Below are positions 3,291 through 10,000 of a stretch of DNA of 64,000 bases, in pieces. The translations under genes and the position numbers were made by a program. The notes under the pieces are model-generated. The model saw nothing but the letters and a program-made list of their open reading frames with translations, was not told the DNA's origin and made no database searches. The DNA is taken from NCBI GenBank assembly GCA_022579005.1, contig MU401564.1, positions 59,673-123,672 on the forward strand, written 5' to 3'. This stretch comes from Poronia punctata (lineage: Eukaryota > Ascomycota > Sordariomycetes > Xylariales > Xylariaceae). Each line of letters opens with the position of its first letter. Within the stretch, counting starts at the first letter, position 1.

Positions 3291-5486
3291 ATGGCTTTCC
3301 AACGAGGAGGTGGTAGAGGTGCGCCGAGAGGCGGTGGTGGTCGCGGTGGTTTTGGCGGAGGCCGCGGAGGTGGAGGTCGCGGTGGATTTGGTGACCGTGG
3401 TGGCCGAGGAGGTATAACCGCTCTTTCCAAGAGATTTCGCACAATTTGCTCGACGGAACTGACGACCCATAGGTGGCCGCGGTGGATTTGGTGACCGTGG
3501 TGGCCGTGGCGGCGGTGGACGAGGCGCCCCTCGAGGTTAGCTAATCCCGATCTTTGATATGGCAAATTCGACCAATTCAACTAACAAACCGCGACTAGGC
3601 CGTGGTGGTCCCAGAGGTGGCGGTGGCCGTGGTGGTGGTGCCCCGAGAGGTGGTGCAGGAGCCAAGGTAGTCGTTGAACCGGTATGTATACGAGATCCGT
3701 TACAATTCGCGGCATGATCTTGAACTGACAGTTTCGAAATAGCATCGCCAGTGAGTTGCCGGCCCGGCGCTAGTAACGCCTACCACATCGAAACTTGGAT
3801 TGCTAACATTTATATCAAGCGGTGGCATCTTCGTATCTCGCGGTAAGTGGACCAATGCAACCCAATGGGCATACGACGCGTCTTAGGATAGAGACCAACT
3901 ACTAGCCCAAGCGCGCAACTTTCTTGCTAACTTTTTAACTTAACAGGCAAGGAAGATCGTACGTGAAACCCCGAGGCTCTTGTTATTCCTCGAGAAGGCT
4001 TGTGACGAACAGTCTCTTATCATGAGCTGATGTCGACTTGTCTATCGGCATGCTTAAGAGAATGTCCTAACACTATTATCTAGATCTCCTCACCCGCTCT
4101 ATAGCCCCTGGTGTTGAAGTTGGTATGTGCAAATCACCCCCTTTCTTTTCTTTCTTCCCTGGTTGCTAACATTGTCATAGTAAGTTGAATACATGCTCTC
4201 GAAGCGAAGCTCTTCGCCGTCGACATGGAGAATATCCTCGAGACGAACCGAATGTTAACGTATCATGCAAAAAGTACGGCGAGAAGCGAATCTCTGTGGA
4301 GGAACAAACAAAGGATGCCGAGGGTGCTCCCGTTAGCACCAAGATTGAATACAGAATCTGGGTACGTGTTGGAACCTCTCGTCTGTTCAGGTCTCGTGGC
4401 GGGCTTCGACTACCATATCGTCAAATTCCGACCCGAGGGAGTACTTCTCAGAACTAACTGTTCTTCACAGAATCCTTTCCGTTCGAAGTTGGCTGCAGCT
4501 GTTATCGGTGGTATTGACAATATCTTCATTGCACCTGGCAAGAAGGTTTTATATCTCGGTGCCGCCAGTGGTACCTCCGTATCTCATGGTAAGTTTCAAG
4601 CCTCGGGAAAGACAGTCACTTGATCACCCATATCCACTAACCTTCTCTCGCAAAATACAGTTGCCGATATCGTCGGTCCTACCGGAAATGTTTACGCAGT
4701 AGAGTTCAGTCACCGATCTGGACGTGACCTTGTAAGTTCTATCTATGCGGAGCCGGACTTGCTGTTTCTAACACATCGCAGACTACAATGGCCCAGCAGA
4801 GGACAAACGTAATACCGAGTACGATAGCCCAGACTCTCCTCCCTATACGATCCGACCTTCCGCCTGCATAACGTTTAGGACCATGTCAGGATCGTCAAGA
4901 GACAACTAGAGAAATACTAATATCCTGGCTTTGTAGTTGTCGAAGATGCTCGCCATCCTCTCAAATACCGTATGCTGGTACCTATGGTCGACGTTATCTT
5001 CCTGGTAAGTATCTGTGTTATGAGTATGAGATGATATTCACCATCTAACACCGAGTAGGATGTTGCCCAACCCGATCAGGCCCGTATCGCTCTTCTTAAC
5101 GCCGGATTATTCCTCAAGATTGGTGGTGGTATCGTTATCTCTATCAAGGCCAACTGCATAGACAGCACCGCTGCCCCCGAGGCAGTGTTTGCCGCCGAAG
5201 TACAAAAGCTCCGTGCGGGAGGTCTCAAACCTCTTGAACAACTGTAAGTGCTCCAAGTGTTGTGGATGTTGGATGACCCTCTTGAATAACATGAACTAAC
5301 TTGGGAATAGGACTTTGGGTATGTCGATGCGTATATTCAGTCTACTGACATTAGCTAACACGTGTTTGCAGAACCGTACGAGCGAGACCATGCTGTTGGT
5401 GTGTACCATCCTATCTTGATATTGATATCCCGGCAGTTTATGCTAACTTGAAAATAGTTATCGGCAGATACGAGGGCCCGAAATAG
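3291..5486 (+). CDS. nop1: Fibrillarin, box C/D snoRNP 2'-O-methyltransferase
   Basis: Nucleolar methyltransferase that methylates rRNA 2'-hydroxyls under box C/D snoRNA guidance, and also methylates a histone H2A glutamine. Sixteen coding exons give 325 aa (yeast Nop1 is 327): 3291-3411, 3473-3535, 3599-3681, 3743-3750, 3820-3842, 3947-3958, 4084-4121, 4275-4361, 4471-4588, 4661-4731, 4782-4818, 4937-5004, 5059-5243, 5311-5318, 5372-5398 and 5458-5486. The first three exons encode a Gly/Arg-rich (GAR) domain of about 90 residues. Next come [24 protein letters not shown], the SAM-binding motif [15 protein letters not shown], the VEDARHP stretch, [20 protein letters not shown] and LEPYERDH. 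Exons 4 and 14 are 8 nt and exon 6 is 12 nt. The join between exons 7 and 8 needs a twin intron (listed separately). Exon positions were set by matching conserved residues, so single-base uncertainty remains at a few junctions. Confidence 0.95.
4122..4274 (+). other. Probable [D1,2] stwintron (intron within an intron) in nop1
   Basis: Exon 7 ends ...GVEV at 4121 and exon 8 resumes YGEKR at 4275. No single GT-AG intron joins these in frame without losing the Val or adding residues. An internal intron at 4123-4180 fits canonical rules: donor GTATGT, branch site GCTAAC and acceptor CATAG. Removing it joins the G at 4122 to TAAGTT at 4181, which creates a GTAAGT donor. The resulting external intron (4122 plus 4181-4274) has a TTAAC-type branch site near 4255 and an AAAAAG acceptor. 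Its removal gives V|Y in perfect phase. This is the layout known as a [D1,2] spliceosomal twin intron in Pezizomycotina. The prediction rests on frame logic and signals. RNA would prove it. Confidence 0.8.
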
Positions 5487-5950: not shown

Positions 5951-7036
5951 TTATATGCCATACAAATAGGCGTCTGGTGTTATTTCGCCCGTAGCTGACT
6001 GTCCTGATCCCAACGATGCCGAAGCTGTTGTCGCATCAGCATCTACTACATCTATGTCCATCTCATCCACATCATCTACCATCATGGGATTTTGACCCTG
6101 TATCCCAGAGACATGGTTCCAGATATCATCTTGCGCACAATCAAATGAATACCCTCCCATTCCCATTCCCATCCCCATCCCCTCTCCTACCCTCTCATCC
6201 GCAATAAAGCAAGGAAGAAGAACCTCTTCCTTACTCGTACATCCTCCTCCTCCCCTTATCAACTGCTGCTGCTGCTGCTGTTGAAAACACAACCACCACC
6301 ACCACCACCACCAACATATCTTCTTCTCCCACCCCTGTGTCTGTGTCTGTGTCTGTGTTTGTGTTTGTGTCTGTGTTGTTGAGAAAACAACACAAACAGA
6401 ACAAGGTGGTCGTCCAGACCGACAACGATAACAACAACAACAACAACAACAATCCCTTGTTTCCACACGAATCAATGGTTCAGGTCTCCAATCCATTTCG
6501 TTTTCGTCGTCGATGGTGGTGGTGAGGTGGTGGTGGTCTTTTTCTAATACGTTGGTTTTGATTTCGACTTGTTCTAACCAGTGGCGGAGGGTTATGCATG
6601 CTGTGCAGATTGTTGGTTTTTTTGTTGTTGAAGGGTCGGGAAAGATGTCATTACAACGGTTTCCGTGGATGTATGTGTTGTCTGAATCTAGGTCTAGGTC
6701 TAGGTCTAGGTCTGTTGGGCTTCGCCATGTATTATTATTATGATGATGGTTGCGATGGCGATTTCTTCGGGGATGGGGATGGGGATGGGGTGGCTGGGTT
6801 CCTTTTCTGCTGTTGATGATGCCGCGTTGACCTCTTGGTCTTTCTACTTCTTTTTCGGGTCGGGTGTTGTTGTTGTTTTTATTGTTGTGTATGTGGCTGC
6901 CTTGCTTCTGCTTCTGCTTCTGCTGTTTTGGTGGTTCGACACCATACATGGTAATGTCATCGTCGCCATCTACAACAGCAGCAGCAGCAGCAACTCGCTT
7001 GTTGGACTGTGGTCGTCGTCGTCTTGCTCTTCCCAT
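5951..7036 (-). CDS. Hypothetical low-complexity protein
   Basis: An uninterrupted minus-strand frame of 361 codons. The N-terminus is basic (MGRARRRRPQSNKR). The middle is a chain of homopeptide tracts: Asn, Gln/Lys, His/Pro, an Asp-Leu repeat from TCTAGG units, a run of Cys, Thr-Gln repeats, a run of Trp, Gln, and Gly-Met repeats. Two stretches look more like ordinary protein: TICTACITLRHWLEQVEIK near residue 140, and the acidic C-terminus with MVDDVDEMDIDVVDADA. No domain is recognised. The frame may be a real gene inflated by microsatellites, or a chance frame through repeat DNA. Length and the ordinary-looking ends favour a gene. The repeats argue against trusting it. Confidence 0.35.
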   Translation of the reverse strand: MGRARRRRPQSNKRVAAAAAVVDGDDDITMYGVEPPKQQKQKQKQGSHIHNNKNNNNTRPEKEVERPRGQRGIINSRKGTQPPHPHPHPRRNRHRNHHHNNNTWRSPTDLDLDLDLDSDNTYIHGNRCNDIFPDPSTTKKPTICTACITLRHWLEQVEIKTNVLEKDHHHLTTTIDDENEMDWRPEPLIRVETRDCCCCCCCYRCRSGRPPCSVCVVFSTTQTQTQTQTQTQTQGWEKKICWWWWWWWLCFQQQQQQQLIRGGGGCTSKEEVLLPCFIADERVGEGMGMGMGMGGYSFDCAQDDIWNHVSGIQGQNPMMVDDVDEMDIDVVDADATTASASLGSGQSATGEITPDAYLYGI

Positions 7037-10000
7037 GGCGAGGGATATTTTTCATTCATTGCTTGCTTGCTTGTTGGAGGGGCTATTTTCCGTTTCTTCC
7101 CATAGTTGATGTATCATCGTGGCGCACAAATAGTTGTGGCCATGCTTATTATATATAGAACTACCTAACCTACTTATGAAAGGGCCGAGTAAGGCAGACA
7201 CGCTTCTCGTTTCTGTGAAGATTCTTCTATCTATACAGGGAGATATTTGTTCCACCTTCGTCTTCTTCTCCGTGAGAAATTCCCCAGGCAACCTTTCAAA
7301 GGTCAACATGATACAAAGGCATAAGAGTATAGAATACATCGAAGGCTCTGGGGACGTCTTAATTTGGGGCCAAGTGATGCAAGATTGGGGAGCAAGGTGC
7401 GAAGACAGGCAGGCTCATCTTATCGTAGCAGGATCACAAAGGCCAACCTGAGAATAGAATGTAGTAGACCCTGCTTGTCCTAATGGTTGAAAGATGGTAA
7501 CTTACACAAGGATGTGAGGCCCAAGACAAGTTTTCGATGTATTTCGTCGGTATTTTGGTAGGGTATCTGCACTTGCATCTTGTAGAAAATTCTGTATGAG
7601 GATATTTCTAGTCAAGATGCTTTGCTTGTTACCTGGTGCATACCTAGATAATGGGTTGAGGCTTTGATACAAGATCAAGGGAATCTCTCTCGGTTGGAAA
7701 ATGCCAGTGAATCATAAGGCAACAAAAGCAGTGTCTTCCTTGAATCTCAACTTGTTAGTGCGGCCTAGGTTAGGAGGTTGGAATCTGGATGCCTGTAGTA
7801 GCCTATTCTTCTTTATGTGATGTCTGAAGGCAACGCCCATCAGACATTGAAGATTCAAATGGGTATGTGTAAAAAAAGACCATGTCTAGGTAGATTAGAC
7901 AAATGTCTCTCCAGGGTAAGTCAACCCGCCTCTTTGCTTCATACAGCAAGAATGAAGTGAGAGACATAATCTCCGAGCATAGTGATACCTACTGGCTAGG
8001 TAAGCGGAACCATGGCTGTCTCTACTTCCGGAATCAATTCCGCCGGAAAACAATGCCATGTTCTTCTAGACGCAGGGAAATTCCACACCGCCACGTAGTA
8101 TTGATTCAAAAGGCGTTGAGAATGGAAAGATACTCTACGAGTAAGGGGCTAATTAATTGATTATGGCTCCGAGTTCAGTTCCTGGGTTAGGAGCTGATAT
8201 AGGCGAAGCTACCTGTTTTAAATAGTGGCGACGCCCACCTCTATTTATCGCCCTTTGTGTGGTCCGGATGAGAGCGGAGGCTCGGAATGTGTGGAATACA
8301 ATAGCTACATAAGTAGCCAGTTAAAGCGAAATTCGTCGCCTATGAGAAGAGAACGAGGTGAAGTGGTGATAGTTGAATATGTCATGTGTAACCACCCAAT
8401 GTCACCTCAGTATAGAATCATGACTCGTGAAGAGGGAAAGATATGGTAGTAGATACATACATGTATAGTGAAATACCTAGCGTTCTGTCTCGAAGTTGGT
8501 AGGTATTAAGAATTTGGCCACCTATACTTTACGTAGTCGGCGGGATTGCATATGTAGATCGGTGCGGGTTGCCAAGTTCTTCCCCGCGTTTTCCATGTTC
8601 ACAACATCGGCCCTTGTCTCTATGTTTTTACTCTTACCGTTACCTCTTATGAAGACGGAATGAAACATGGAGCCACATACTTGTACGTCCCTTCCCTACC
8701 AGTATACGTAGCCACTGTAATATTGTCCAGCCTAAAAACTAATTACCCGCATCTTGTTGGTGGTTGATGTGATGTGACACGCAGGGGAGCCCTTGTGTTT
8801 TGCATGATCGGCAAAACGACCTGGCTAAGCCTATAATGGCAAAGCTTCTGGCAAATTGGTGATAATTTCTAGTACACTGTACTCTCTGCTTCGACTTTTC
8901 TGGAATAGGAAACGGCGACCATAGTAAATGATGGAAAGCCGGGATTAGCTTCCTTGGCTTCTCCTTCCCTCCTCACTTTTCTTCTCTCGACATGGCTGGG
9001 CAGAACTGAGGGACTGGGCAACCGTCTGGTTGGTAACGAGCCAACAGACAATTCATACCGATGGTACCTGCCTAGTCACTCTCCCTACTACATATGTAGA
9101 TTCCGCCCTTGCTCATATTACGAGTACACACACATACGTCTTATTACGTACGTGTACTCGTACCAATGTTCAGACATCCCAGACACACAGGCGGCCCGGT
9201 ATCCATGCCTATTTTGCTTTTCGGGTTGGCCAGGTCCTCTGTCTGGCTGCATGTGCTCGGGTCGATGCCTCCACAGTCCACCGTATACCATCGCAATCGT
9301 ATACCCTTTCAAGCCGCGAGCATGCCACTCATCGGATTTATTGCCCACAATGGCCGTCTCACTCATCAAAATGCCGACACGCTACTGTAGAGACATGGTC
9401 TTTCCCAGGGGTCTCGCCAACTTTTCACCACCTGTCTTGGGACTCTCTTCCTTCCTATCCCAGTTGTGGCTTGGTCGTTCACTAGGGATATGGGAAGGAT
9501 GCATCGTTATATGAGCTGTTGTCTTCGTGTACGTCTGCGTCCGAGTATCAGTTGTAAGGGAGTTCCTAGACCCCCTTTCCCTATCTTCTACAATAGGTAC
9601 GTATATCAACAAGCTTGTGGCTTAGTCAAACAGGCCTCTCGCATTCTCCGATAGTGAAAACCATGGCCGGGTCCTCACCTATCACGAAGTGTGCGACCAG
9701 TGTCCCTGTTCTTTTCTTACCAGCCTTCACAAGTCGTATAACCACTCGTTATCTGGGAGAAGAAGGATATATTTTCGCCTCGACCGTCATGACGTACAGG
9801 TATAATTCTACCCCTCATCACTCATATACGTAAAGTAAAGATCAAATCGTCATAAGCGTGCCATCTATTCCCACTTATCCTCGTTGACTACACCCTGTCT
9901 GAGAGCCATACCACCCTATATTTACACGTACCTCCTCTTCGGGGCTAAAAACGCCTGAAGACAGCAAGTCGGTAGATGCGATCGAACGATATAATATCGC

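Follow-up and report, generated by a model that had tools for sequence, protein, structure and literature searches.

A very probable [D1,2] spliceosomal twin intron in the fibrillarin gene of a Xylariaceae-like fungus

Described [D1,2] stwintrons and the fibrillarin unit

The lipS gene of Aspergillus nidulans carries a [D1,2] spliceosomal twin intron (stwintron) whose splicing intermediate has been proven by cDNA sequence (PMC5639578). In Hypoxylon sp. CO27-5, the [D1,2] stwintrons that occur uniquely have 7 nt as the commonest distance between branch site and acceptor of the inner intron (49/81), while the outer intron shows 6 nt in 50/81 (PMC9024468). Two near-identical clusters of sister stwintrons with a length of 184-185 nt are reported for Xylaria, and the outer branch distance of Xylariaceae sister stwintrons is almost invariably 14 (PMC12403724). 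Occupation of the same position in orthologues has been used in print as support for [D1,2] stwintrons. Our search of the stwintron literature returned none described in fibrillarin or in a snoRNP gene; supplementary tables of host genes were outside this search and may list one. The terms fibrillarin and nop1 are absent from the main texts of PMC9024468, PMC12403724, PMC8469720 and PMC5639578. The kind of intron discussed here is already known, i.e., the fibrillarin case is an added member and no new class.

The fibrillarin (NOP1) gene spans positions 3291..5486 on the plus strand of the window, i.e., the whole 64,000-nt stretch of DNA that was analysed. Fibrillarin is an rRNA-modifying enzyme. 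The gene comprises 16 exons and 15 intervening sequences; when all of the latter are spliced out, the frame is intact and encodes 325 aa, with the normal stop at codon 326. The product has a GAR domain and a full methyltransferase domain (Pfam PF01269, 335.8 bits), and yeast Nop1 aligns to it nearly end to end (residues 4-321, E=3.7e-132). One may ask whether the gene is a pseudogene for which no functional splicing solution is needed, given 15 intervening sequences, some with weak donors. However, all other exons join in frame, the product is 95-96% identical to several Xylaria orthologues across residues 84-325, and no fibrillarin locus other than 3291-5486 was found in the 45.05-Mb assembly of 573 contigs (search counts are lower bounds), which leaves the pseudogene reading with next to no probability. 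From the identity to Xylaria orthologues we take the fungus to be Xylaria-like.

The gene shows further peculiarities. Three micro-exons of 8, 12 and 8 nt are located at 3743-3750, 3947-3958 and 5311-5318, and around the first two of them the models P0042 and P0043 of relatives go wrong too. A 41-nt repeat of the GAR domain (90% identical) has its copies at 3372-3412 and 3472-3512, which flank intron 1 (3412-3472) as if the repeat unit had been duplicated around that intron. Outside the gene, positions 5951-7051 hold a 366-codon open frame on the minus strand, with Q, W, C and H runs from simple repeats.

Positions 4122-4274 very probably form a 153-nt [D1,2] stwintron that interrupts the fibrillarin gene in phase 0 and is removed in two ordered steps. 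The upstream exon 4084..4121 (ending ...APGVEV, phase 0) and the downstream exon 4275..4361 (starting YGEKR) are placed by sequence, spliced translation and protein alignment; removal of 4122..4274 yields GVEV|YGEKR. The unit fits motif model A for [D1,2] stwintrons as published by Fekete and co-workers (PMC9024468). Its inner intron, 4123..4180 (58 nt), reads GTATGT...GCTAAC-7 nt-TAG, i.e., it is a U2-type intron with a donor, branch site and acceptor of its own. It sits between G1 (4122..4122) and T2 of the outer donor, such that G4122 and TAAGT (4181-4185) together give GTAAGT. The remainder of the outer intron, 4181..4274 (95 nt including G4122), reads TAAGT...GTTAAC-12 nt-AAG. Donors were scored with a matrix built from the gene's 14 other introns, which gives 8.4 bits for the inner and 9.2 bits for the rejoined outer donor. 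The outer branch site GTTAAC and acceptor AAG agree with DYTRAY and HAG in motif model A and are the weakest elements of the unit: the 14 other introns have CTAAC, CTGAC or CTAAT (picked by eye), and the acceptor AAG is found in 1/14. The preliminary description of this locus had proposed the same [D1,2] arrangement, with an inner intron 4123-4180, a GTAAGT donor and an outer end at AAAAAG4274; its coordinates are exact on re-reading of the sequence, its class assignment agrees with the published motif model, and both component introns stand, as does its pointer to Xylariales.

Since the inner intron lies inside the outer donor, removal would have to proceed in two ordered steps. In the first, the spliceosome would excise 4123-4180, joining G4122 to T4181 and forming the GTAAGT outer donor. 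In the second, the outer intron would be excised up to AAG4274, joining V to Y. Both steps would be U2 splicing reactions, inner before outer, as in print for the class. The present data give the anatomy, the constraint set by the protein and the pattern in database models; the order of steps and the intermediate are taken over from the published behaviour of the class. Such a unit would make two-step splicing obligatory in a gene that is highly conserved and serves rRNA modification.

Single introns and gene models of relatives at the V|Y junction

We enumerated single introns that stay in frame without a stop to 4361, allowing the border pairs GT-AG, GC-AG and AT-AC, a minimum length of 41 nt, donors from 4090 onwards and acceptors no further than 4299. 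None of the 37 in-frame introns (0/37) restores GVEVYGEKR, i.e., it is obtained from two-step removal alone. One-step removal of 4123-4274 leaves one G, with a frameshift and a stop at codon 137. Excision of the inner intron only runs into a stop at codon 119, and full retention into one at codon 132.

We also assessed how often such a unit is matched by chance. The published motif model (PMC9024468) has 2 matches in the window, compared with 0.22 on average for 60 dinucleotide shuffles, and a stricter pattern has 1 match vs. 0 in the same 60 shuffles. The second match of the published model, 3681-3819, was rejected as a stwintron: its removal would take out the 8-nt exon CATCGCCA, in which part of the conserved EPHRH is encoded, and cause a frameshift. 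We read 3681-3819 as two ordinary introns around a micro-exon.

For comparison with other species, 179 fibrillarin proteins were fetched from two overlapping lists, namely the best 120 of 6661 matches (for which scoring was restricted to the 7994 candidates sharing most words) and the best 120 of 1366. The Xylariaceae-named set comprises 23 of them, i.e., entries named Xylaria, Xylariaceae sp., Nemania or Ustulina, two of which are from X. grammica; lineage was looked up for 3 of the 23, all Xylariaceae. Comparing the position in protein models, the junction is aberrant in 13/23 Xylariaceae-named proteins vs. 0/156 others among those fetched (Fisher p 5.7e-14, with relatedness ignored and classes assigned by eye). 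V directly precedes Y in 156/156 proteins outside the Xylariaceae-named set.

The aberrant models fall into different forms. Five of the 13 continue after EV with VS... (P0017, P0027, P0035, P0041, P0050), which would be the expected remainder when a gene finder cuts the inner intron only and translates the outer donor GTAAGT. In four others V is missing (P0007, P0028, P0032, P0043). P0029 carries a 25-residue insert that starts with AH (not VS) and ends INVSCEK|YGEKR, while the protein start of P0038 reads MLTCICEK|YGEKR. P0010 and P0042 show deletions at the junction, the one of P0042 being larger and less specific. The two X. grammica models differ in two features only, both of them in P0035: an insert of 24 residues at V|Y that starts VSGLN, and 13 residues skipped elsewhere. 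At the protein level, INVSCEK and MLTCICEK can be back-translated with suitable codon choice to (A/G)TTAAC...GAAAAG, which is close to GTTAACGTATCATGCAAAAAG of the window, and for P0029 the spacing equals that of the window's sequence. The 3' end of the outer intron is thereby consistent with apparent translated intron remnants in P0029 and P0038.

These data bear on the single intron that comes nearest, 4119-4274, with the poor donor GTTGGT. If it were an ordinary intron, the protein would simply be without V (GVE|YGEKR). The join is in frame and stop-free, and the same join without V is found in the four Xylariaceae models listed above, which are possibly transcript-based. On the other hand, V is kept in all 156 other proteins and in 10/23 of the Xylariaceae-named set. 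Furthermore, the donor scores 2.4 bits, which is less than any of the 14 other introns reaches in-sample (2.93-9.2), though two of these get lower (0.42 and 0.54) when left out of their own matrix. The intron would also skip the GTATGT donor 4 nt downstream and leave the inner branch site, the inner acceptor and TAAGT unaccounted for. We consider it very unlikely. The preliminary description had held that no single GT-AG intron retains the conserved protein and that two-step excision gives the V|Y join of other fibrillarins; both statements are borne out, although the near miss 4119-4274 that drops V had been overlooked.

The same set of models speaks to an assembly or sequencing error. If the G at 4122 were extra, the true intron would be a simple one of 152 nt (4123-4274), and we infer that it would then be an ordinary in-frame GT-AG intron. 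However, other Xylariaceae entries, taken as separate assemblies, fail at the same junction, five of them with the VS signature, and a complete inner intron directly before TAAGT would be a coincidence. An error at this position is extremely unlikely.

A further alternative is that only an intron 4127-4180 with GTGCAA donor is removed and fibrillarin carries 33 extra residues. The frame is indeed open through 4181-4274 into YGEKR, and P0029 has its insert at the same junction. Yet the 156 other proteins have no insert at this position, the inserts of relatives vary in length and sequence between species, only one of the two X. grammica models has the insert, and GTGCAA scores 0.8 bits. The probability of such an extended protein is almost negligible.

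We thus return to the [D1,2] stwintron as the preferred reading of 4122-4274. The forms of the aberrant models suggest one shared stwintron that annotation software mishandled in differing ways, and it is probably because of this stwintron that several public Xylariaceae models deviate at one and the same residue, where V is lost, a spurious insert appears or the model has a gap. Normal V|Y models make up the remaining 10/23 of the Xylariaceae-named set; at the DNA level these may have an ordinary intron at the junction, a stwintron that was annotated correctly, or no intron at all. The junction is also normal in 8 entries named Hypoxylon, Jackrogersella, Daldinia or Parahypoxylon, which we take to be Hypoxylaceae. 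The stwintron may thus be restricted to Xylariaceae. Looking for a conserved junction at which the models of a whole family are broken is a possible cheap screen for further stwintrons. P0009 (94% identical, on a 1,944-base contig) has an intact V|Y and is counted among the 156 others. It was not taken as RNA evidence: its start, near the first two micro-exons, resembles a translated intron, and the protein may have been called from genomic DNA without regard to splicing.

The [D1,2] pattern elsewhere in the genome

We searched the 45-Mb genome for the strict pattern G|GTRHGT-N30-60-VCTRAC-N5-9-YAG|TRWGT, which occurs at 13 places. When the first G is replaced by A, C or T, 1, 2 and 2 places are left, respectively, i.e., the G corresponding to G4122 is enriched genome-wide. 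Exons generally tend to end in G, and part of the G preference may come from that; the control with scrambled outer donor retains the exon-end G, yet yields 2 places vs. 13. A broader first pattern gave 13 matches as well (1 for the reversed-pattern control), with several GGTAGGT matches resembling low-complexity repeats.

A conserved protein is restored across the join at 5/13 strict-pattern places, namely in fibrillarin, the U3 snoRNP protein Rrp9, the 60S export adaptor Nmd3, Lys9 (saccharopine reductase) and an ALO-like oxidase. The RRP9 candidate is located at G000:C395:5725-5888 (L025 1526-1689), and its join matches PDB 5oql chain X with E=1e-22. The NMD3 candidate lies on the minus strand at G000:C39:206593-206427 (L026), with a join that matches Nmd3 (E=6.4e-44). 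For LYS9 (G000:C80:112002-112152, L015 1501-1651), the join matches Lys9 with E=2.4e-44, where the query was also joined across one ordinary intron downstream. The ALO-like candidate (G000:C231:48267-48412, L024 1568-1713) is situated near the 3' end of its gene and scores 28.3 bits for PF04030 (cut-off 23.1). These four sites were checked for boundary shifts and partial products, while single introns were enumerated for fibrillarin only. The removed unit reads GG...AG in fibrillarin, Rrp9, Nmd3 and Lys9, and no boundary shift turns it into GT-AG; in the ALO-like gene, a one-base shift of the removed unit gives GT-GG. Judged by these joins, the RRP9, NMD3, LYS9 and ALO-like sites are probable [D1,2] stwintrons. 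Given the probable RRP9 case, fibrillarin is probably not the sole snoRNP gene carrying one in this genome.

The remaining 8/13 places (on C1, C3, C26, C47, C49, C60, C130 and C134) are candidates, with open joins in some cases (e.g., C1, C26 and C134) and none in others; the upstream exon of the C47 place gave no Pfam match.

One could go further and suppose that the fibrillarin stwintron acts as a conserved checkpoint whose two steps tune the output of fibrillarin, with ribosome-biogenesis genes as possibly preferred hosts. The former draws on the early stops hit by the incomplete and one-step products tested, the latter on the 3/5 supported stwintrons that reside in fibrillarin, Rrp9 and Nmd3. 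We regard this reading as improbable.

Relation to known stwintron systems

To assign the fibrillarin unit to a kind of stwintron, we looked for the features of propagating sisters, i.e., similar copies in the genome and terminal 10-nt complementarity or symmetry, and found neither. A DNA similarity search of the 45-Mb genome for sister copies returned only 4122-4274 itself (one match at E<=10), where the lack of another match does not prove rarity. With regard to folding, the ends pair with each other in the MFE structure, as do the branch-site regions, and the stwintron does not stand out from shuffled sequences (z 0.68; 150/200 shuffles fold as well). The search for near-terminal complementary elements reported a single inverted-repeat pair, 4209-4220 / 4276-4287, whose second arm is in the exon, and neither of the NTIRE-10 sequences quoted in PMC12403724 was seen near the stwintron ends when compared by eye. 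With no second copy found, a fold no better than that of shuffles and no NTIRE-10 by eye, the unit resembles the older 'uniquely occurring' stwintrons rather than propagating sisters. The fibrillarin stwintron is probably old and common to Xylaria, Nemania and Ustulina, and not a recent propagating copy.

Among the described systems, lipS of A. nidulans (PMC5639578) shares with the fibrillarin unit an inner intron located between G1 and T2 of the outer donor, and automatic annotation failed there as well. It differs in fungal class and gene, and lipS is known from cDNA while the fibrillarin unit is known from sequence. The sister stwintrons of Hypoxylaceae and Xylariaceae (PMC12403724) are likewise of [D1,2] type, have Xylariales hosts and are of broadly similar size (153 nt here). 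Unlike them, the fibrillarin unit has no sister copy found, shows an outer distance of 12 nt and is apparently common to several species.

Finally, we compare with the unique stwintrons of Hypoxylon sp. CO27-5 (PMC9024468). Here, the host is Xylariaceae-like and not of the Hypoxylaceae, the gene is fibrillarin, the outer distance is again 12 nt, and the evidence consists of genomic sequence and protein models. On the other hand, the fibrillarin unit is like these unique stwintrons in its motif architecture, in its inner distance of 7 nt, in that no similar copy was found in the genome, and in a position that is apparently shared within the family.
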